DNA from: Ruficoccus sp. ZRK36
Lineage (GTDB): Bacteria; Verrucomicrobiota; Verrucomicrobiia; Opitutales; Cerasicoccaceae
Reading direction: 5' to 3'
Assembly: GCF_019603315.1 (NCBI RefSeq)
Contig: NZ_CP080649.1
Location: 2,056,176-2,120,175 of the forward strand
DNA length: 64,000 bases
The notes under the pieces are model-generated. The model was not told the DNA's origin and ran no database searches. It saw only the letters and a program-made list of their open reading frames with translations. The position numbers were made by a program, and so were the translations under genes. This document shows, one piece after another, positions 104 through 54,214 of the stretch (positions are counted from its first letter, which is position 1; each line of letters starts with the position of its first letter).

Positions 104-191
104 GAAAGTGCAGGGGCCGGCTGGACCAGCAATCATGGGGCGAAGCCCCATCAGTGATCCGAAGGATCGCAGGTGCAGGACACTGTCCTGC
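104..191 (-). repeat. Post-stop hairpin array 3' of tsaB
   Basis: Read on the minus strand from the tsaB stop codon there are three short hairpins in a row: a 17-base palindrome at 175-191 (8-bp arms around one base, touching the stop codon), GATCC/GGATC around a 3-base loop at 156-168, and a 7-bp stem ATGGGGC/GCCCCAT around GAA at 135-151. A CTGCACTTTCG motif follows (about 105-115). The same order of elements recurs after other genes in this window, so I treat this as one copy of a repeat family. It may act in transcription termination or mRNA 3'-end protection. There is no clear U-run after the stems. Confidence 0.7.
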
Positions 192-4120: not shown

Positions 4121-4215
4121 GCAGGGCGTAGCCCTGCACCGCAGATGCTTCGCATCTGGATGGATGCCACGGGTTGCACCCGCTGGCACCCATGGGCCTT
4201 TGCCCTATCGCTTAC
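4121..4215 (+). repeat. Post-stop hairpin array 3' of erpA
   Basis: Starting on the base after the erpA stop: GCAGGGC/GCCCTGC around GTA (4121-4137), then CAGATGC/GCATCTG around TTC (4142-4158), then weaker pairs including CGGGT/ACCCG. The first two stems match in position, spacing and linker (CACC) those after tsaB, but their arms differ by paired substitutions. Same family as the arrays at 104, 4318, 5031, 7438, 18321, 18530, 29316 and 41764. Confidence 0.7.
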
Positions 4216-4317
4216 TGCGTTCGCTGCCCTCTTTAATTTCATGCCCATGCCGGCGCCCAAGCGGAGCCATTCGTGATGCGTTAGCATTACAGGTACAGGA
4301 CTCGTTCTGGTGGTGGG

Positions 4318-4443
4318 ACCCAGTTTGGATGCTCTGCTCAGCGATTAGTAAAAACAGAGAATCTGTTTTTACTAATCGCTGATACGATGCGCAGCATCGA
4401 AAGTGCAGCCGATGGCTGCTGCGGGTCTGGACTGCATAAGCCC
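4318..4443 (-). repeat. Hairpin array 3' of gloA with a perfect 20-bp palindrome
   Basis: Read on the minus strand 8 bases after the gloA-like stop: a 67-base cassette (4443 to 4377) with stems GCAGCC/GGCTGC and GATGC/GCATC, then a perfect 20-bp inverted repeat (arms 4339-4358 and 4362-4381, loop GAA), then a CCAAACTGGGTC end motif. The cassette aligns gap-free with the one at 18321-18387. The arms of one stem differ by compensating changes, and the long palindrome has a different sequence but the same ends (CAGCG...CGCTG) and place. Confidence 0.8.
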
Positions 4444-4451
4444 AGGGGAAA

Positions 4452-4838
4452 TCAAAGGGCGAGGATTTCGACTTCGTAGCCGTCGGGGTCGGTGATGAAG
4501 GCCATCTTGTGGTCGTTGTCGGGGGTAAACTTTTCCTTCCAGTCGCCGGGCCACACTTCGATACCCGCGTCTTCGAGCATCTGGCAGTGGGCTACGACAT
4601 CGTCCACGCGGATGCAGGTGTGCACGAGATCCTCGGGGACTTCGACCTTGTAGTCGGGTGAGTAGGTCAGCTCCAGCTTGTGGGCGCTGCCGGGGATCTG
4701 CATGTGAACGAGTTGGTTGCCGGAGGGGGACTTGTCGGTGCGCTTGAGCACTTCAAAGCCGCAGGTCTTGCAGTACCAGTCGATAGATTTGTCGAGATCG
4801 CTGACGCGGATGCGGGTGTGGTCAAAGGAAATAGGCAT
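4452..4838 (-). CDS. Glyoxalase-fold protein, lactoylglutathione-lyase-like
   Basis: This 128-residue protein is a single VOC/glyoxalase unit made of two beta-alpha-beta-beta-beta modules. It opens with FDHTRIRVSDLDKSIDWY, where His7 is the usual first metal ligand, and closes with ITDPDGYEVEIL, whose Glu is the usual last ligand. GloA isomerises the hemithioacetal of methylglyoxal and glutathione, and the length and closing motif fit GloA well. Other VOC enzymes share these motifs, so the substrate is not proven. It is a single gene on the minus strand upstream of a hairpin array. Confidence 0.8.
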   Translation of the reverse strand: MPISFDHTRIRVSDLDKSIDWYCKTCGFEVLKRTDKSPSGNQLVHMQIPGSAHKLELTYSPDYKVEVPEDLVHTCIRVDDVVAHCQMLEDAGIEVWPGDWKEKFTPDNDHKMAFITDPDGYEVEILAL

Positions 4839-5030: not shown

Positions 5031-5095
5031 CTCCCTTTGCTTCAGGCAAAGGGAGCTGTGATCCAGAGGGTCACGGGTCCAGGGCTATGCCCTGG
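5031..5095 (-). repeat. Hairpin array overlapping the ubiE stop codon
   Basis: Three stems: CCAGGGC/GCCCTGG around TAT (5079-5095), whose loop side contains the ubiE TAG stop (5085-5087); GTGATCC/GGGTCAC around AGA (5058-5074, one G-T pair); and a perfect 10-bp stem CTCCCTTTGC/GCAAAGGGAG around TTCAG (5031-5055). The order and the first two stems parallel the arrays after tsaB and erpA. It may end ubiE transcripts; there is no long U-run. Confidence 0.65.
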
Positions 5096-6510: not shown

Positions 6511-7343
6511 TACGCGCTAAATCCATATTAACCATAACCGGCCTGACTGTGGCCATCTGCACCACTCAGGCCGGGGTGTACTCCGGGCCGAGTGATATCG
6601 CCCATGCTATCGATCCGGCGGTCCACTACACCTCCACAAAGCTTGCGGGGTGGGCGGAAACGGTCGCCGACTACAGTCCGACGGACGAGGTCAGCGCCAG
6701 CTACGCCACTCCTGATAAAGCGCTTGGTTATTACAACACAGGCACGGTCAGCCTCGGGGACCTCAGTTCTGATAAAATCGCGACTGGGGTTACTCCCGGC
6801 AGCATTACGCTGGGCTTCGGCGCCGGTTTTTCCAATGGGGACGGCTGGGACTTCGCCGTCTTCGAGAACGGCTTCACCAGTGGAAATAATCTCTTTATGG
6901 AGCTCGCCTATGTGGAGGTGAGTACGAACGGGGTGGACTTCGCGCGCTTCGACAGCATCTCGACCAACACCAGCAGTGCGGCCGGTAGCGGAGCATTTTC
7001 GTATTATGATACGACCAATGTCTACAACCTCGCGGGCAAAAGCGCCGGTGGCTACGGGACGACCTTTGACCTGAACGACCTGCTCGATCATCAGCTCGTC
7101 ATCGACGGTATCGTGGATCTCGATGCGATCAACTATGTACGCCTCGTCGATATCCCCGGAGACGGCAGCTATCTGGACAGCGAGGGCAACCCGATCATCG
7201 ACAACTACCATACGTCCGGCTCGGGTGGACTCGACCTGCGCGCCATCGGCTACGCCTACGCTGTGCCGGAGCCGCGCCACTACGCCATGCTGGCCGGTGC
7301 GCTCGCACTGGTCCTTGCCTGGCTGCGTCGGCGTACGCGCTAA
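6504..7343 (+). CDS. PEP-CTERM-anchored exported protein
   Basis: From the ATG at 6504 this is a 279-residue protein with a signal peptide (MSIRAKSILTITGLTVAI and on) and a C-terminal sorting signal: VPEP, a hydrophobic stretch (YAMLAGALALVLAWL) and an RRR tail. Such signals are cut by an exosortase and the proteins are linked to exopolysaccharide export in Verrucomicrobia and Proteobacteria. The body is low in Cys and rich in Gly, Ser and Asn, with FAVFENGF and SYLDSEGNPI motifs; I recognise similar sequence only as unnamed PEP-CTERM proteins. An upstream TTG at 6465 is in frame but has no signal peptide. No exosortase is in the window. Confidence 0.85.
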   Translation: MSIRAKSILTITGLTVAICTTQAGVYSGPSDIAHAIDPAVHYTSTKLAGWAETVADYSPTDEVSASYATPDKALGYYNTGTVSLGDLSSDKIATGVTPGSITLGFGAGFSNGDGWDFAVFENGFTSGNNLFMELAYVEVSTNGVDFARFDSISTNTSSAAGSGAFSYYDTTNVYNLAGKSAGGYGTTFDLNDLLDHQLVIDGIVDLDAINYVRLVDIPGDGSYLDSEGNPIIDNYHTSGSGGLDLRAIGYAYAVPEPRHYAMLAGALALVLAWLRRRTR

Positions 7344-7437: not shown

Positions 7438-7660
7438 GCAGGACGCGATCCTGCACCCGCCAGGCCGAGTTCTAGACCTGTGATGCTGGCGCATCACGGA
7501 GGCCTCCGCTTGGAGCGTCGGCCTGGGCCACAGCGGTTGTCGCCGCCTCAAACGAACTTTACTCGTCCGACACTGGTAGCGTGAGAAAATCTGTAGGCAA
7601 ATCGGTATTGACTGCGAGCGATGGGGCAGAACCCCATCATTGACTCCAGCTGTAACCCGG
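7438..7660 (-). repeat. Hairpin array between the PEP-CTERM gene and clpX
   Basis: In clpX sense the array runs GATGGGG/CCCCATC around 5 bases (7620-7638), about 120 bases with little structure, GTGATGC/GCATCAC around 4 bases (7480-7497), and GCAGGA/TCCTGC around 5 bases (7438-7454). A 45-base part around 7450-7497 also matches 4280-4325 (a GTGATGCG..AGCAT.ACAGGT core). It belongs to the post-stop hairpin family but is longer and more decayed. Confidence 0.55.
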
Positions 7661-18303: not shown

Positions 18304-18320
18304 TAAAGGGAGTACTAACT

Positions 18321-18444
18321 GGGCTTGTGCAGCCCAGACCCGCAGCAGGCGAAGCCTGCACTTCCGATGCTGCGCATCGCATCAGCGTTTGTTGAAACCA
18401 GCGACGCTGGTTTCAACAAACGCTGAGAGGCATCAAAACTGGGT
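18321..18444 (+). repeat. Hairpin array 3' of the lipoprotein gene with a perfect 21-bp palindrome
   Basis: In lipoprotein sense: GGGCT/AGCCC (18321-18335), GCAGGC/GCCTGC around GAA (18345-18359), GATGC/GCATC (18366-18378), a perfect 21-bp inverted repeat (arms 18383-18403 and 18405-18425 around a single A), and a CAAAACTGGGTCG end motif near 18432-18444. The first 67 bases align without gaps with the minus strand of 4377-4443. Confidence 0.8.
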
Positions 18445-18529: not shown

Positions 18530-18658
18530 TGCGCAGCACGGGCCATGAATCGAAAGTGCAGGCTAAAATGCTGGTCCGACTGGAGCAGCAATGGCGGCGT
18601 AGGGGGATTTATCCCCCTCAATGCCACCGGGTGCAACCCGGCGCGGAGCCCCCAAGTG
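18530..18658 (-). repeat. Hairpin array 3' of gatB
   Basis: In gatB sense, directly after the stop: CCGGGT/ACCCGG around TGC, GGGGGAT/ATCCCCC, then ATTGCTG...TCCAG and CTGCACTTTCGAT, the last two being motifs shared with the array after tsaB. It faces the lipoprotein array head to head in a convergent gap. Confidence 0.6.
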
Positions 18659-29315: not shown

Positions 29316-29496
29316 TGCAAATCACCAAAACTGGGTCGTCTCTATAGGGAAAATCAAAAGGCAATCGCTATCGGCAATGACTTAGGCGGGCCCTCGTCAG
29401 TTGAGACATCAATGTCGGTCGATGTTTGGGCGAAGCCCGGACATCGGACCGAAAATGCAGGCTCTGCCTGCCGCGGGTTTGGGGCGCGCAGCCCCG
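29316..29496 (-). repeat. Hairpin array 3' of oppF
   Basis: In oppF sense, one base after the stop: GGGGC/GCCCC (29481-29495), GGCAGGC/GCCTGC (29457-29470 region), and a CGATGT/ACATCG stem with an inner GGGC/GCCC (about 29420-29446). The far end carries the AAAACTGGGTCG motif (about 29325-29333). Order, linkers (ACCCGC, ATTTTCG) and end motif match the arrays after the lipoprotein and gloA genes. Confidence 0.7.
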
Positions 29497-41042: not shown

Positions 41043-41741
41043 ATGAACTACAAGAGTATCCGCGAAGAATGCTGCGAGGCCAACAAACGGCTTCCGGCCA
41101 CCGGGCTGGTTGACCTGACCTTTGGCAACGTCAGCGTGTACGATCCGGCAGAGGCAGTCTTTGCCATCAAGCCCAGCGGTGTGGACTATGATCAGCTCAC
41201 ACCGGCCTCGATGGTGATCGTCGACATGGATGGCCACGTCGTCGAGGGTGACCTGCGCTACTCTTCTGATACGCCGACCCACCGCTGCCTGCTGCGCGAG
41301 TTTGCCTCCAAAGGCATACGCAGCATCGTGCACACGCACTCGCGCTCAGCGGTCGCCTTTGCTCAGGCCGGGCGTGTGCTTCCCTGTCTGGGGACCACGC
41401 ACTGCGATTACTTTAACGGCTCGGTCCCGGTGACGCGTGTCATGACGGAGGCCGAAGTCGCCGACGAGTACGAGTGGAACACCGGTCTGGTGATCCTGGA
41501 AGCTTTTGCCAATATCGACCCGGCTGAGGTGCCAGCTGTGCTCGTCCGCAACCACGGGCCGTTTGCCTGGGGGGGCAGTGCCGCCAAGGCTGTGGAGACG
41601 GCGCAGGCGCTGGAGATTGTCGCCGACATGGCTTTGAAGACCCTGTCGGTTTCGCCCTATTCGCGCCCGGCCAGTCCGCATCTGCTGCGCAAGCACTTCT
41701 ATCGTAAGCACGGAGTCGCCGCCTACTACGGGCAGCCGTAG
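41043..41741 (+). CDS. araD: L-ribulose-5-phosphate 4-epimerase
   Basis: AraD turns L-ribulose-5-phosphate into D-xylulose-5-phosphate using zinc. The 232-residue class II aldolase-fold protein shows LTFGNVSVYD, FAIKPSGVDYDQL, SSDTPTHRCLLREF and the zinc motif HTHSRSAVAFAQ, followed by GTTHCDYFNGSVPVTR. It starts 5 bases after the araA stop, so the operon is araBAD. Confidence 0.95.
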   Translation: MNYKSIREECCEANKRLPATGLVDLTFGNVSVYDPAEAVFAIKPSGVDYDQLTPASMVIVDMDGHVVEGDLRYSSDTPTHRCLLREFASKGIRSIVHTHSRSAVAFAQAGRVLPCLGTTHCDYFNGSVPVTRVMTEAEVADEYEWNTGLVILEAFANIDPAEVPAVLVRNHGPFAWGGSAAKAVETAQALEIVADMALKTLSVSPYSRPASPHLLRKHFYRKHGVAAYYGQP

Positions 41742-41763: not shown

Positions 41764-41817
41764 AAAGTCGTCCTGGCCTGTGATGCTCGCGCATCGCTGA
41801 TGACTTCGCGAATCGGA
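41764..41817 (-). repeat. Hairpin element and terminator 3' of the PAS-AraC regulator
   Basis: In regulator sense: GATGC/GCATC around 4 bases (41782-41795), then CACAGGCCAGGACGA and CTTTTTT. The core matches 4280-4325 and 7450-7497. It forms a usable terminator in the convergent gap with araD. Confidence 0.55.
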
Positions 41818-47135: not shown

Positions 47136-47500
47136 ATCACACAGTAGCAAGACGGACAGCGTTCGCTCTGGCAAGAGTAAGACCGCGAAATTTCAATAGC
47201 GTCTCCTGCACCGTTTGGGAGTTCTTCATAGCGTTTTAATTGTAACGATGTGTCGTCTGTGTGTGCAACGTGTCGAACTGTTCACAATGTGTAGTTTGAC
47301 TTGGGAGACGCCACTCACCTTGCTGGATGTGCTACTCAACTTTACTGTTTTTAGTCGTTTTATCTTCGAGTGACCAAGGGGGGGATTCCTGGGGTCGTTT
47401 TGGGGTTGCTTCTACTTGGATGCGCTAGGGTTGAGCAGTGTCTGCCGAGCCATCGGGCCGGTGGATAAGCTATCTACACTATCTACACCACGGGATTAAT
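47136..47500. other. Gene-free stretch before the giant secreted protein
   Basis: No convincing ORF, promoter pair or terminator was found. A 9-base tandem repeat (CTATCTACA twice, 47470-47487) lies 13 bases before the probable start codon, and the first 200 bases are moderately AT-rich. It presumably holds divergent promoters for yifB and the giant gene. Confidence 0.4.
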
Positions 47501-50500
47501 ATGGGACTCAAAGCATTCTTCGGAGCATGTCTGTGCTTGGGCGCTGCTGCTGTTCAGTCTGAGGCTGGCATGGTTGCGCACTGGGACTTTAATGAAGGCA
47601 GCGGCACGACCGCCACTGACTCTGTCAACTCTATCGAGGGCACCCTGCAGGGGGAAGCCGCTTGGGTTAGCGGACCGGATGGTTATGCGATCCAGATGAC
47701 CAATGACGCCACAACGCAGGTCTATATCGGCGCGCCGGACGTGCTCGACATCACCGGGGCGGTGACGGTAATGGCCTGGCTCCACCCGGATGGTGCCAGC
47801 AACTACGGTAACATCGTGGGCATCGACACATATGGTGGTGCGGACAACGACCAGTATATTCTTAAGACAACAGTATACACAACCTCCCGTCTTTCGTTTC
47901 AGGTAACTTCGGATAGCTCTAGCGCAACGGCGACTGACACTGTTTCCATCGAGGAGCGTGCTGCGTCGGATGACGATGGTTGGATCCACGTCGCTGCGGT
48001 TTTCACTCCTGGTGAGTCGATCGTCCTGTACGTGAATGGTGAGGTCGTTGCTACCACGAGCACTGACATCGAGACTATGCAGAGCGCGCTGAGCGAGGAG
48101 GCTCCCTTTCGCATCGGTAACATGACCAGCAGCACCACCTGCGGTTTTAACGGTGCCATCGGCGATGTCCGTGTCTATGACAACGCGGTCAGTGCCAGCG
48201 CGATTGCAGCGCTGGTTGAAGCCCGGAGCACCTACGCCGATGATTTTGATGCCGACAGCAGTAGCAGCTATACCGGCGTGGATTCCTACAATACCGGTGG
48301 CTCCTTCTCAGTGGACACGGGTAGCGGCGAGCTCTCCACCATGGCAGCCTCTTCTAATACCTACTCGGTGCTGATCAATGATGGTGAGCACTTCCTCAAG
48401 CCCGGTCAGTACTTTGAAGCGAAATCGACTGCCGGTGTTGCCGATAGCGGCCCGCACCAGTATGCCATTGTTTCTAATACTGCTGCTCAGCCGGGCGCGA
48501 CGGAAGGCTTCCGCTTCCGCCGCTCGCCAACCCTGTGCATTCAGGGTGGTGACTCTCCTGGCAGCGCCACCACGCTGGCTTCGCCGAGCCAGAGCATCGG
48601 GATTGCTTACCGCATTGCGCGCACGAGCGATACCGAGTTTGCCTTCTACTACAAAGTAGGCTCCAGCTGGGAGTATCTCGATACGTACACGCTGGATGGT
48701 GCCAGCGAGCAAATGTACGTCGGTGTGCAGAGCTATGCTGGCACAACGACCTGGGATTACCTCAAGATCGGTAACATCGCTGACATCGAAGCCGACGCGA
48801 CTGAAGCTGACGATGGCGAGTACCTTTTCTCCTTTGGTGCGGTTGCCGACATCCAGTACAAAGATGTTACGGTCGCTGGTACCCGCTATTACAGCGCCTC
48901 GGTGGTTAAGCTCCCAGTCATGGTCGAGGACTTCAATGCGCGCGACCTGACCTTTGTGATCAGTCTCGGGGACTTCATCGACGCCGACTATAGCAGCTTC
49001 GCCACGATGATGGATATCTGGGAAGACCTTACGGCCCCCACTTATCAAGTCATTGGTAACCACGACATGGTCTCCGGCTCTACGCTGGCTGATATTATGA
49101 CGGCGTTGGGCATGACTGAGGCGTACTACACCTTTACCTACAACGGCTGGCGTTTCATCGTCATGGACGGTAACGACAGTGGCTACGGCGTTCACTCCGA
49201 CGGGCAGCTCGCCTGGGCGCGTGAGCAGCTCGACCAGGCCCTCGTTGATGGCGAGCCTGTTATCATTTTTGATCACTTCCCGATCTATCCCCAGAACACG
49301 GCCCACATCAGCAGCCAGGCTTCGGAGCTGCGCAGCCTGATCCATGATTATCCCAACATCCGCGCGTGGATTAACGGCCACAACCACGCCGGGGATTACG
49401 CCGAGTTCGAGGGTATCCACTGTCTGACAGTACATGGTATGGTCGAGACGGCGGACACCACTGCCTATGCCGAAGTTGAGATCTGGAGCAACCGTCTCGA
49501 AATCCTCGGTGAAGGACGCGAGCCGGACCGCTCTCTCTATTTTACGGAGGCGAATACGCTGGCAGCTCCGGTAGCGCTGAGTGCTGCCGACGGCACGACC
49601 GGCATCAGCATCAGCTGGGATACCTACGCCGGAACCGATGCCACTAGCTACGAGCTGCAGCGCCGCATCTCCGGTGAAAACACCGGCTACGAGAGCATCG
49701 CCACCCTGGGGATCTCGGACACGAGCTATCTCGATGAGAATGTCTCGAGCAGCTCGATGTATGTTTATCGTCTGCGTGCCGTCACCGACGGGGGCGATGC
49801 CTCCGACTGGGTGCTCACGAGCTATAAGTTGAGCAACATCCCCGGTCAGGTCACGGACCTCACCGCGACCGCCGGCGAAAACAATGCAATCGCCCTGACC
49901 TGGACGCTCGATAGCACCGGCTACGACAGCCTTATTCTTGAGCGCAGCATTGCCGGGACTGGCGAGTACGAGCTTGTTACCGCCGAGCTTTCCGGGGATT
50001 CCACCAGCTACACCGACACCGGCCTCCTCCCCAACACCGAGTACTCCTACCGTATCGCCGGGGTCGCTGCAGGCCGCCAGACCGACTGGTCCGACGCTGG
50101 CACAGCCAGCTCCGGCAGCCTGCCGGTTCTCGAGGGCGAGGCCGAGGGCCTCGTCGCCTACTGGCCCTTTGATGAGGGCACCGGCACATCCGCGGTTGAT
50201 GCCACCAGTAACGGCTCCAACGGTACGCTCCAGGGCGACGCCGAGTGGACAGCGGGTGTGAGCGGCTCCGCCATCCAGATGAAACCTGACAGCGCGACTC
50301 AAGTTTATGTGGGTGCGCCCAGCCTTCTCAACATCACCGGCGCGGTCACGATTATGGCCTGGGTTCACCCGGACGGCGTCAGTAACTACGGCGTCATTGC
50401 TGGTATCGACCAGTCCGGTGGGGCGACGAATGACCAGTACGTCCTCAAGACGACCGTCTCCAGCACCTCCATGCTGACCTTCCAGGTTTCCTCAGGTGGG

Positions 50501-53500
50501 ACTGGCTACACCGCCACTGACACCGTCTCGCTCCCCACCCGGGCTTCCCAGACGGCAAACGGTTGGGTGCATGTCGCCGGGGTCTTCACACCGGGTGAGA
50601 GTGTGAAGCTCTACGTCAACGGTGAGCTGATCACCACTACGCCGGTCAGCATCGAGACGCTTCAGAGCACACTTGATAGCAGTACTGTTCCCTTCCGCAT
50701 CGGTAATATGAGCAGCAGCTCTGACTATGGCTTCAACGGTGCTATCGACGAGTTGCGCGTGTTCGCAGCCAGCGTCTCGGCCGAGGACATTGCCACCTAT
50801 GCTGAGGGAGAGGCTGTTGTCGAGTTTCAGGGTACGCTTATTGCGCAGGGCTCGACCTGGTCTTATCTTGACGATGGTTCGGATCAGGGGTCGGCCTGGA
50901 CGGCGGTTGATTTCGACGACTCCTCCTGGAGCAGTGGTGCCGCCCAGCTCGGTTATGGCGACGGCGACGAGACGACGATTGTTAGCTATGGTGGCAACTC
51001 TTCGAACAAGTACCCGACGACGTACTTCCGCCAGAGCTTTGAGATCGACGAGGCGAACCTCCCGCTGATCTCGCAACTCAATCTGAATATCCTGCGTGAT
51101 GACGGCGCGGTCGTCTACATCAACGGAGTTGAAGTCGCCCGCGATAACATGAACTACGACTCCTTTGACTACCAGACCTACGCCTCGGGTGTGGTTGACG
51201 GTGACAGCGAGGACACCTTCTTCGCGCACATCGTCGACTCCAGCGTCCTGCAGGCTGGTACAAACGTGATCGCGGTTGAAATTCACCAGCAGCGGTCCAG
51301 CAGCTCGGACATCAGCTTCGACCTCTTCCTGGAGGCCAAGAGCAGTGCCGATGCCGAGGCTATCGCCGCCGGCTCGACGTGGTCTTATCTCGATGATGGC
51401 TCGGATCAGGGCTCGGCCTGGACAGCGATTGATTTCGACGACGCCACCTGGAGCACGGGAGTCGCCCAGCTCGGCTACGGCGGTAATGGTGAAGCCACTA
51501 CGATCAGCTACGGCAATGACGCCAACGACAAGCACATCACCTACTACTTCCGTCAAAGCTTTGAAGTCGAAACTGCCAGCGATGTGGCTGGCCTGCTCTT
51601 CAAGGTGCTGCGTGATGACGGCGTTATCGTTTACCTCAACGGCCATGAGGTCGTCCGCGACAACATGCCCGCGGGGGCGATCAATTCTGAGACGTACTCC
51701 TCGGATATCATCTCGGGTGATGACGAAAACACCTTCTATGAGTTCCATGTCCCTGCCTACTACCTGATAGACGGGACCAACGTGGTGGCCGCCGAGATTC
51801 ATAATCGTGACGGCACCAGCTCGGACCTCAGCTTCGACCTCTCCCTTATCCTTATGGGTGAGCTCGACGAAAACGCCGCTACCTTCACAGAGGACAGTCT
51901 GACGGCTGACGATGCTAATGCGAAGGCCGGCTATAGCTTCAGTCTCGCTTCGTACGTGAGCAACGCTGACGACGACGCTTTGACTTACAGCATCCTTGAG
52001 GGCCCGGACTGGCTTTCGGTCGACGAAAACGGTAACCTGACCGGTACGCCCGGCCCGGATGATATCGGTACGGTGACGGTGATCGTCTCGGTCAGCGATG
52101 ACGATGGGGCCAGCACGATTGAGATCACGCTTACGGTCGGTTCCGTGGCCGAGCTCGCCCGTGCGCCCTTACCGAGCATCAACGACGAGGCTCTGAGCTT
52201 TGGGGTCATCCCGGATACACAGGGTGGGACCAACGGTACGCCGCCGGATGAGGCTGCCGCCATCGCTGCGCGCTTTATCGGGCACGCTCCGTCCTTCATC
52301 ATTCACTGCGGCGACGTTACCGACGGTAACAGCTCGAACGGAAACACGAAGCTTTCCCAGCTTGAGGACCTCAAGGAGCTGCTGGTGAATCCGCTGGCCG
52401 AGCATGGAATCGGCTTCTACCCGGTGCGTGGTAATCACGACTCCAATGCCTACAACCAGGTCTCCAGCGGTGTCTCTGCCTGGGCGGCGGCCTTCCCGTA
52501 CCTCTTTGAGGGAGACGACCCGATCGTGGACCCCACAGATGTTCCGGGGGGCAGCGTGGACTCGCCAAACGACAGCAACTTCTGCTACGTCTACTCGCCC
52601 AACGACAATGTATTCATGGTCTCGGTGGACCAGTGGAATGGCGGGGCCTCGAGTAACTACTCGGACTGGGTGGCCGCGAAGTTCAAGGAAATCCGCGAGT
52701 CTCACCCTGATGCGCATATCTTCGGCTTCTCGCACTCCGGGCTCTACGCTCTGGCGTCGCACCCGGCGATGTCCGAGTTTGTGACCGGTGGTTCCGAGCC
52801 CTATATTGCAGCGGGTAAACAGTACCAGATCGACGGTTGGTTCAGCGGACACAACCACATCTACGACCGCTCGATGGCGGTGGATCTGGAGAATGGCAGC
52901 AAGCCTTACATGTTCGACTTTACCTGCGGCTCGGCCTCGGAGAAGTTCTACTCGCTCAGCCGTACGCCGGCCGACGACCAGCATGTCAACGCGATCGTAG
53001 ACAGTACCGCTACGGCGGGTCGTCCCATCGCCTACCTGATGGTCGATGTCGCCGGGCCCTTCGTCCAGACAGTCACCTATATGTCCCCGGATACGAGTGG
53101 CAGCGGTACCTTTGACGATTGGTCGGTGTGGGATGCCTACACCTACTCACGCAACGGTCTGCAGTTCACCGTGGCCGCCGGACAGAACTACAACGAGCGC
53201 GACATCGCCGACTCCGCTCCGGATGAGGATGGCTTTGTCGGTACCCGCGTCGCCATCACTGATGGCGTCAACTCCGACACCACCTCCTACACGGTTGGCG
53301 GCACGACCTTCTCTGTGTATCGAAACATCACTACAGGATGGTTGACGCGCGAGCAGTGGTACGATGCCGGTGATGCGAACGTGGTCTCCGATATCGTGAG
53401 CATCCACGGGATGACCAACGACATCGACACGAACCGCTCCGATGCCTACACGCTGACGCTCAGCTATGATGGTGACAGCCTCTCCGATGAACAGGTCGCC

Positions 53501-54214
53501 AGCCTCTACATCGCGGCCTTCCTCGACGAGGACACCTCCGACGATGACGAGGGTGGGTGGTACGCAGCCGCCGACCAGACCGCCGCCGGAGAGCTCGCCG
53601 CAGAGCCGCTCATGCGCGCGGCCACTGAGGAGGACGAGCTCGGCGCCTGGGGCATCGACACGGACACGCAGACCGTCTGGGTGCGCTTGGACTACCAGGG
53701 TGACTTCGCCGTGGCCTCCACGCTGACGGACTCTGATGGTGACGGCCTGGTTGACGCCTGGGAAATGGATCACTTCGGCACGCTCGCCTACGATGGCACC
53801 TCCGATGCCGATGGTGACGGCCTGACTAACCTCCAGGAGCAGGCCGTCGGTAGCTCGCCACTGGACTCCGACAGCGACAACGACCTCATCGACGATGCCA
53901 CCGAAGTCCAAAACGGGCTGGACCCGACGACTGCCAACTCCTCGATCACAAACAGTATCGCCAGCGCCATCGCGAACAGTTCTGATGTCCAGTCCGCCTA
54001 CGGGCTGTACACCGCCGACAGCCTCGCTTCGCTCGTCGGCCAGAGCTTGATCGAAGTCAAATCCGACAAGACGATCAGCGTCGAGTTGCAGCTATGGGAG
54101 AGCTCGGATCTGGAACACTGGACACCGCTCGGCGACTCCGAAGCAAAGACGCTCTCGGTCGGAGGATCCGGTGCGGCCTTCTACATCTGGCAGCTGGGCT
54201 CCTCCCAGGAATAG
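47501..54214 (+). CDS. Giant secreted protein with two LamG and two metallophosphoesterase domains
   Basis: From the ATG at 47501 this is a 2237-residue exported protein (signal MGLKAFFGACLCLGAAAVQSEA). Order by approximate residue: LamG 1 (25-235); a second beta-sandwich (240-435); phosphoesterase 1 (445-680) with VADIQY, SLGDFID, GNHDM and NGHNHAG, closest in look to ADP-ribose-type Mn pyrophosphatases; two FN3 domains (690-870); LamG 2 (880-1100); two tandem copies of a 170-residue unit (1114-1457); a cadherin/Ig-like domain (1465-1545); phosphoesterase 2 (1557-1800) with PDTQ, CGDVTD, RGNHD and SGHNHIYDR; and C-terminal calcium-type DSDGDGL repeats (2074-2140). A longer reading from 47438 lacks a clean signal. 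Nucleotide or phosphodiester breakdown outside the cell is inferred. Confidence 0.85.
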   Translation: MGLKAFFGACLCLGAAAVQSEAGMVAHWDFNEGSGTTATDSVNSIEGTLQGEAAWVSGPDGYAIQMTNDATTQVYIGAPDVLDITGAVTVMAWLHPDGASNYGNIVGIDTYGGADNDQYILKTTVYTTSRLSFQVTSDSSSATATDTVSIEERAASDDDGWIHVAAVFTPGESIVLYVNGEVVATTSTDIETMQSALSEEAPFRIGNMTSSTTCGFNGAIGDVRVYDNAVSASAIAALVEARSTYADDFDADSSSSYTGVDSYNTGGSFSVDTGSGELSTMAASSNTYSVLINDGEHFLKPGQYFEAKSTAGVADSGPHQYAIVSNTAAQPGATEGFRFRRSPTLCIQGGDSPGSATTLASPSQSIGIAYRIARTSDTEFAFYYKVGSSWEYLDTYTLDGASEQMYVGVQSYAGTTTWDYLKIGNIADIEADATEADDGEYLFSFGAVADIQYKDVTVAGTRYYSASVVKLPVMVEDFNARDLTFVISLGDFIDADYSSFATMMDIWEDLTAPTYQVIGNHDMVSGSTLADIMTALGMTEAYYTFTYNGWRFIVMDGNDSGYGVHSDGQLAWAREQLDQALVDGEPVIIFDHFPIYPQNTAHISSQASELRSLIHDYPNIRAWINGHNHAGDYAEFEGIHCLTVHGMVETADTTAYAEVEIWSNRLEILGEGREPDRSLYFTEANTLAAPVALSAADGTTGISISWDTYAGTDATSYELQRRISGENTGYESIATLGISDTSYLDENVSSSSMYVYRLRAVTDGGDASDWVLTSYKLSNIPGQVTDLTATAGENNAIALTWTLDSTGYDSLILERSIAGTGEYELVTAELSGDSTSYTDTGLLPNTEYSYRIAGVAAGRQTDWSDAGTASSGSLPVLEGEAEGLVAYWPFDEGTGTSAVDATSNGSNGTLQGDAEWTAGVSGSAIQMKPDSATQVYVGAPSLLNITGAVTIMAWVHPDGVSNYGVIAGIDQSGGATNDQYVLKTTVSSTSMLTFQVSSGGTGYTATDTVSLPTRASQTANGWVHVAGVFTPGESVKLYVNGELITTTPVSIETLQSTLDSSTVPFRIGNMSSSSDYGFNGAIDELRVFAASVSAEDIATYAEGEAVVEFQGTLIAQGSTWSYLDDGSDQGSAWTAVDFDDSSWSSGAAQLGYGDGDETTIVSYGGNSSNKYPTTYFRQSFEIDEANLPLISQLNLNILRDDGAVVYINGVEVARDNMNYDSFDYQTYASGVVDGDSEDTFFAHIVDSSVLQAGTNVIAVEIHQQRSSSSDISFDLFLEAKSSADAEAIAAGSTWSYLDDGSDQGSAWTAIDFDDATWSTGVAQLGYGGNGEATTISYGNDANDKHITYYFRQSFEVETASDVAGLLFKVLRDDGVIVYLNGHEVVRDNMPAGAINSETYSSDIISGDDENTFYEFHVPAYYLIDGTNVVAAEIHNRDGTSSDLSFDLSLILMGELDENAATFTEDSLTADDANAKAGYSFSLASYVSNADDDALTYSILEGPDWLSVDENGNLTGTPGPDDIGTVTVIVSVSDDDGASTIEITLTVGSVAELARAPLPSINDEALSFGVIPDTQGGTNGTPPDEAAAIAARFIGHAPSFIIHCGDVTDGNSSNGNTKLSQLEDLKELLVNPLAEHGIGFYPVRGNHDSNAYNQVSSGVSAWAAAFPYLFEGDDPIVDPTDVPGGSVDSPNDSNFCYVYSPNDNVFMVSVDQWNGGASSNYSDWVAAKFKEIRESHPDAHIFGFSHSGLYALASHPAMSEFVTGGSEPYIAAGKQYQIDGWFSGHNHIYDRSMAVDLENGSKPYMFDFTCGSASEKFYSLSRTPADDQHVNAIVDSTATAGRPIAYLMVDVAGPFVQTVTYMSPDTSGSGTFDDWSVWDAYTYSRNGLQFTVAAGQNYNERDIADSAPDEDGFVGTRVAITDGVNSDTTSYTVGGTTFSVYRNITTGWLTREQWYDAGDANVVSDIVSIHGMTNDIDTNRSDAYTLTLSYDGDSLSDEQVASLYIAAFLDEDTSDDDEGGWYAAADQTAAGELAAEPLMRAATEEDELGAWGIDTDTQTVWVRLDYQGDFAVASTLTDSDGDGLVDAWEMDHFGTLAYDGTSDADGDGLTNLQEQAVGSSPLDSDSDNDLIDDATEVQNGLDPTTANSSITNSIASAIANSSDVQSAYGLYTADSLASLVGQSLIEVKSDKTISVELQLWESSDLEHWTPLGDSEAKTLSVGGSGAAFYIWQLGSSQE

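Follow-up and report, generated by a model that had tools for sequence, protein, structure and literature searches.

What are the arrays of short hairpins that stand directly behind stop codons in Ruficoccus sp. ZRK36: signals that belong to the genes they follow, or copies of a repeat family that collects there? The window considered here, i.e., the whole stretch of 64,000 nucleotides that was analysed, is G000:C1:2056176-2120175 within the 3.76-Mb genome of this strain (G000). A sequence-only reading had described nine intergenic arrays in it as sharing one syntax of stems, each in sense orientation close behind a stop, with no described family of that syntax and with REP/BIME elements as the nearest concept. 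All nine sequences, read back from the window, were found where they had been located, and with the gene calls of the present analysis each array touches or nearly touches a stop, with edges 0-17 nt away or overlapping it; the adjoining stops are at 191, 4120, 4452, 5085 (overlap), 7677, 18303, 18659, 29498/29309 and 41818. In agreement with the statement that no such family has been described, Rfam gave no match at gathering score in the window. The features are as follows.

104..191, - strand: mosaic arm of C, B and E modules with an A/D end; it directly adjoins the stop codon of the tsaB-like gene (191-838, -)
4121..4231, + strand: C/B-type arm flush after the erpA TAG, GCAGGGCGTAGCCCTGC-ACC-GCAGATGCTTCGCATCTG ... 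GGGTTGCACCCGCTGGCA ... GCTTACTGCGTTCGCTGCCC
4323..4444, - strand: type A element, full length (model match G000:C1:2060498-2060619, 134.2 bits), in sense orientation relative to the gloA-like gene (4452-4838, -) and with CAGCGATTAGTAAAAACAGA/TCTGTTTTTACTAATCGCTG as its long hairpin
5031..5095, - strand: C-type arm CCAGGGC..GCCCTGG-ACCCGTGA-.. in a tandem setting, where it overlaps the ubiE-like gene at its stop (5085)
7438..7660, no strand given: mosaic array between convergent genes with stops at 7343 (+) and 7677 (-)
18320..18439, + strand: type A element, full length (model match G000:C1:2074495-2074614, 130.5 bits; in alignment A1), in the order GGGCT..AGCCC hairpin, GCAGGC..GCCTGC hairpin, CACTTCCG, CGATGCTGCGCATCG hairpin, perfect variable 20-bp hairpin, tail GAGAGGCATCAAAACTGGGTCG
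18530..18658, - strand: mosaic arm of D/B type that belongs to the opposite gene and faces the type A copy 18320-18439 head to head
29316..29496, - strand: type D arm with GGGGC/GCCCC, GCAGGC/GCCTGC, CATTTTCGG and GGTCCGATGTCCGGGC/GCCC..CGACC as the long hairpin; its end is a degraded type A tail (CCCAGTTTTGG); weaker model match G000:C1:2085575-2085671
41764..41817, no strand given: short degraded array between convergent genes with stops at 41741 (+) and 41818 (-)

Anatomy of the repeat

A hairpin syntax does recur at the 3' ends of genes, as the earlier reading had it, but as a mosaic in which at least four oriented arm types are combined rather than as a single shared syntax, and array 41764-41817 is only a degraded fragment. 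The type A unit, of about 122 nt, consists of four consecutive hairpins and a conserved tail, in the order GGGC..GCCC hairpin, ACCCGC, GCAGGC..GCCTGC hairpin, ACTTT, CGATGC..GCATCG hairpin, TGT, a 20-bp hairpin and AGCAAAGCATCAAAACTGGGTCGCCACC. The 20-bp hairpin begins with CAGCG, and its inner 15 bp are highly variable among copies. Loop orientation is conserved in the short hairpins, with purine-rich loops in M2, and a T-rich stretch precedes the outer hairpin (M1) in the 98 pooled copies. The type B arm is CGGGTTGCACCCGCTGGCATTGATGGGGC.. and the type C arm GCAGGAC..GTCCTGCACCTGTGATCC.., while type D has the first two hairpins of type A and a different long hairpin; single hairpin modules measure 15-45 nt. 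In convergent regions type A stands head to head with a B, C or D arm across a spacer of 15-60 nt. The convergent erpA/gloA region (331 nt), for example, is filled by the C/B-type arm 4121..4231 and the type A copy 4323..4444. Elsewhere in the window, positions 47438-54214 hold an open frame of 2258 aa, inside which 112 nt are duplicated (50849-50960 and 51371-51482, 87% identical).

Hairpin excess behind stops and between convergent genes

Hairpins, defined as perfect stems of at least 6 bp, were counted against dinucleotide-shuffled DNA in 1.24 Mb of uniformly sampled sequence. The uniform sample was drawn as 60 stretches of 20 kb at even spacing, the one inside the window being omitted from the counts; about 40 further loci around repeat matches were also taken, and genes in all of these were called by a hexamer model. 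Hairpin density was 6.54/kb in convergent intergenic DNA (0.95 shuffled). It fell to 2.22/kb in tandem DNA, where shuffling left 0.85, and to 1.18/kb in divergent DNA, where it left 0.69. Similarly, at least three hairpins were found in 21/130 convergent regions where 0.3 were expected, in 13/516 tandem regions (3.0 expected) and in 1/158 divergent regions (1.3 expected). The first hairpin started 0-4 nt past the stop in 39 cases vs 10 in shuffled DNA. Motif GCAGGGCGWAGCCCTGC, with up to 2 mismatches, occurred 14 times forward and 16 times in reverse (reversed-pattern control 0/1), and motif CGATGCGCAGCATCG 59 and 61 times (control 3/5). The arrays are real and beyond chance. The earlier reading had staked its case on an excess over shuffled sequence together with a distance and a strand bias relative to stops; the excess is large and the distance bias is present, but the strand bias is absent for type A.

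Being stable hairpins after stops, the arrays resemble intrinsic terminators, from which they differ in having no U-tract and almost no G-U pairs and in not being strand-fixed in tandem regions. U-tract terminators were found at 12.5% of array-bearing stops vs 16% of convergent stops without arrays, giving no support for U-tract termination as the role of the arrays. They stand at only about 11-16% of the stops in the uniform sample of G000, a low share that suggests a wide use of Rho or other means of 3'-end formation. At one locus of G000 (L076, ~1500-1900) the T-tract of a canonical terminator is followed at once by a type D arm, and this array is therefore beyond the likely 3' end.

Orientation relative to stops

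A fixed orientation relative to the stop, claimed by the earlier reading as a property of the element, does not hold up. Seven of the nine arrays (five loci) are located between convergent genes, where either direction is sense to one gene, so that their sense orientation is mostly an effect of location; only 104-191, whose left-hand neighbour gene is likewise on the - strand, and 5031-5095 are both tandem and sense. Because the convergent setting forces a sense orientation, it is the tandem regions that are informative. There, type A/D arms had their 5' side toward a start in 20 cases and toward a stop in 11 when the uniform sample was taken together with the element loci of four species, and fixed sense orientation is thus not a type A property. 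B and C arms faced a stop more often than a start in the tandem regions of the same four species. The arrays do not form a sense-oriented code behind stops; for the most part their direction is dictated by lying between convergent genes.

Distribution and dispersal

About 50 type A copies were found in G000 around CGATGC(TGC)GCATCG. A covariance model gave 139 matches in this genome, including reverse-strand partials, with about 45 full-length type A copies (at least 100 bits) and about 20 degraded ones. Searched in 104 genomes (G000 and relatives), the model matched three congeners strongly and the same-family genome G005 weakly; five further relatives were marginal (E above 1e-4) and the remainder gave no match. 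A pattern scan of 84,980 species genomes, a set that may omit the window's own genome, found only three verrucomicrobial MAGs (JAUTCS, JAUIAM and JAUIHT). The repeat family is confined essentially to one verrucomicrobial genus.

In a tree of 86 copies the species label changed 13 times vs 41 times when shuffled, with 0/200 shuffles as low, and several copies of G002 are nearly identical, which indicates that amplification continued after the species split. Among ten orthologous intergenic regions with an element, four shared it, three had it in the relative only and three in G000 only; the erpA/gloA region, for example, has 51 nt in G002 in place of the 331 nt in G000. The clustering by species and the presence or absence at orthologous sites argue that the family disperses. 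These comparisons gave no clean empty site with a target duplication, the intergenic DNA being too diverged. Between the same convergent gene pair in G000 (L081:1767-2086) and G001 (L188:2511-2838) a whole A-spacer-D composite is inverted, with a spacer identical at 59/76 positions once inverted (score 101 vs a shuffled maximum of 37). The repeats are probably mobile and non-autonomous. We consider it likely that the arrays of the window are copies and fragments of a genus-restricted, non-autonomous and mosaic family of palindromic repeats, of the REP/BIME-MITE kind, which collects between converging genes.

Captured units with terminal inverted repeats

Near-identical copies in G002 and G003 have sharp ends (TAGTGTGCCGTGAGCTAAGTTC..., core, ...GAACTTAGCTCACGGCACACTAG), measure about 205 bp and have unrelated DNA outside. 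The ends of these captured units are about 30-40 bp in both species, and the junctions are mostly TA/CTAG, in G002 on both sides. Terminal inverted repeats were present in 12/15 copies of G002 and 3/10 of G003, vs 0/36 in G000 and 0/21 in G001. In G002 the outer inverted repeat had a median score of 44.5 (control 15.2) and in G003 it was weaker, while the median of 14.0 in G000 (control 14.6) is equal to shuffled sequence. The outer inverted repeat of the G002 unit varies yet stays paired, e.g., TTCGATTTTTCTATCTATATTTGGGG (L137:15392, +; L136:3941, reverse strand).

A 1146-bp element in G002 has ends similar to those of the captured unit and carries the gene of a DDE_3 transposase, which we take to be IS630-type from the DDE_3 domain of its family and the TA target. 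This element (L276, G002:C19, 546-1693; L277) has the ends TAGTGTTATGTTAGCTAAG / TAGTGTTGTGTTAGCTAAG, with four near-identical copies at G002 contig ends, and shorter units of about 150 bp with similar ends are also found in G002. The unit of G002 and G003 is like an IS630/Tc1-type MITE in that its core is enclosed by inverted ends, TAGTGTGCCGTGAGC..., at TA/CTAG and in that the unit ends (TAGTGTGCC) resemble those of the 1146-bp element. The array family differs in that the core of G000 is without inverted ends and the DDE_3 transposase is absent from G000; the search for the IS630-type transposase gave no match in G000 or G003 and only a fragment in G001.

It could be argued that the form with terminal inverted repeats (TIRs) in G002 and G003 is ancestral and that the copies of G000 are decayed IS630-type MITEs which lost their ends. 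The presence of the same core with such ends in most G002 and some G003 copies speaks for this, as does the T-rich stretch before M1, yet we find it unlikely, because no trace of the ends is left in the 36 copies of G000 and the 21 of G001 despite a well-conserved core, and because of the distribution of the transposase.

Paired arms of the long hairpin

Changes in one arm of this hairpin are matched by changes in the other. In alignment A1, which has 33 base pairs in 23 copies, 99.2% of the 759 cells are paired, 98 cells are altered on both sides and none on one side only, and covariation is 0.387 vs 0.101 shuffled (0/500 shuffles as high). The 91 type A long hairpins of four species have 4 G-T and 11 A-C among 1867 pairs, i.e., 0.2% G-U compared to 11.4% in the tRNAs of the same genome used as control. 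G-T is not in excess over A-C mismatches on the sense strand of the long hairpin, and type D hairpins have C-A mismatches on the sense strand. By our own tally about 60% of the altered cells in alignment A1 are transversion-type switches, which are impossible via G-U. For terminators of B. cereus, which are selected as RNA, 79% of switches are reported to be AU-GC, and of the AU-GC intermediates that were resolved 89.5% are G-U (PMC5381666). As the arms vary, stay Watson-Crick paired and have almost no G-U, their pairing points to homogenisation at the DNA level, such as template switching, and not to selection as RNA. Template switching homogenises the arms of inverted repeats and inverts spacers (PMC8604942, PMC8794818), and therefore fits both the paired arms and the inverted composite. 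Inverted loops were seen between near-identical copies, i.e., ATC/GAT (e.g., in G003), GAC/GTC and TTC/GAA, but the aggregate excess of loop inversion as a template-switch signature falls short of significance (P about 0.12). Coupled arm changes could alternatively stem from gene conversion among copies.

These data bear on whether the arrays are functional 3'-UTR elements, with hairpins selected as sense RNA for ending or protecting mRNAs, including a two-way insulation of converging genes. Such a role would account for the pronounced convergent bias, the proximity to stops and the conserved loop orientation of the short hairpins, and where U-tract terminators are as uncommon as at the array-free convergent stops (16%) other 3'-end devices may be needed. 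It is nevertheless improbable to us, given the near absence of G-U compared to tRNAs, the transversion-type switches unlike those of the B. cereus terminators (PMC5381666), the sense-strand C-A mismatches of type D, the preference of type A for starts over stops in tandem regions, the failure of arrays to replace U-tract terminators and the presence or absence of elements between congeners.

A transposase able to move the TIR-less core was not identified in G000, where neither a RAYT nor an IS630-type match was found. It is tempting to speculate that this core moves by an undescribed hairpin-DNA mechanism, that the long hairpin is rebuilt as a perfect one at or after copying, that the composite flips in place and that the core was captured by an unrelated IS630-type transposase in sister species; as a whole we hold this to be a long shot.

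Relation to known systems

The closest kinds are REP/BIME and MITE repeats. As to the former, the array family is similarly high-copy, palindromic, intergenic and biased to 3' ends, and it has an alternating orientation in mosaic clusters where an A arm faces a B, C or D arm head to head. REPs are found mostly between convergent and unidirectional genes and less than 20 bp from stops, and GTAG REPs sometimes supply the TAG stop (PMC3733652, PMC12306157). The earlier choice of REP/BIME as nearest concept is therefore shared here, but the proximity to stops, by which the arrays were to be set apart, makes no distinction since REPs are themselves documented within 20 nt of stops (PMC3733652, PMC12306157). 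There are three differences. First, no GTAG/CGTC tag was found beside the type A palindrome in 98 copies. Second, a REP unit measures 20-40 nt vs about 122 nt for the four-hairpin type A with its variable 20-bp hairpin. Third, no RAYT was found in G000; this Y1 transposase (PF01797) was likewise absent from G002 and G003 and present in G001. The idea that the element provides the TAG stop, in the manner of GTAG REPs, was rejected, since flush ends show no excess of TAG (17/49 vs 214/708, P = 0.52). As for integrons and attC sites, no integrase scored above cut-off in the genome, and only generic tyrosine-recombinase matches below the curated cut-off were found. Mitochondrial double-hairpin elements and other hairpin repeats may be comparable as mobile-looking intergenic hairpin units; they differ from the array family in genomes, sizes and conserved parts.

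That the arrays are classical REP/BIME repeats spread by a RAYT would agree with their mosaic, alternating, stop-proximal, convergent-biased and high-copy arrangement and with the abundance of GTAG REPs in Opitutus terrae (PMC3733652), but is very unlikely with no Y1 transposase in three of the four genomes, a T-rich stretch in place of a conserved tetranucleotide beside the outer hairpin and no preference for TAG at flush ends. Without the tag, without a RAYT, with too long a unit and with no terminal repeats in G000, the family works like REP/BIME and MITE repeats and is assigned to neither.

How the arrays may arise and what they mean

Arms of types A, B, C and D join head to head across a short spacer and fill intergenic DNA, chiefly between convergent genes. 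If the arrays are copies of a mosaic palindromic repeat family, as we favour, the units would multiply by a copying process akin to transposition. Copies would persist mainly where neither a promoter nor an operon is damaged, i.e., between converging genes and close behind stops. The arms of the long hairpin would be kept complementary mainly by copying of one arm from the other at replication, by template switching. The IS630-type transposase would move the captured unit in trans in G002, and would probably have done so in G003 at an earlier time. It is conceivable that settled hairpins block 3' exonucleases or ribosomes near the stop, as reported for REPs.

In about 90 copies from four related genomes, the arms of the 20-bp hairpin vary in concert, and intermediates such as G-U are almost absent. 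These long hairpins record how perfect inverted repeats are maintained in nature, and they caution that covariation alone is no proof of a selected RNA structure. With a palindromic repeat core that occurs both with and without transposon ends in sister species, the route between REP-like and MITE forms becomes testable.
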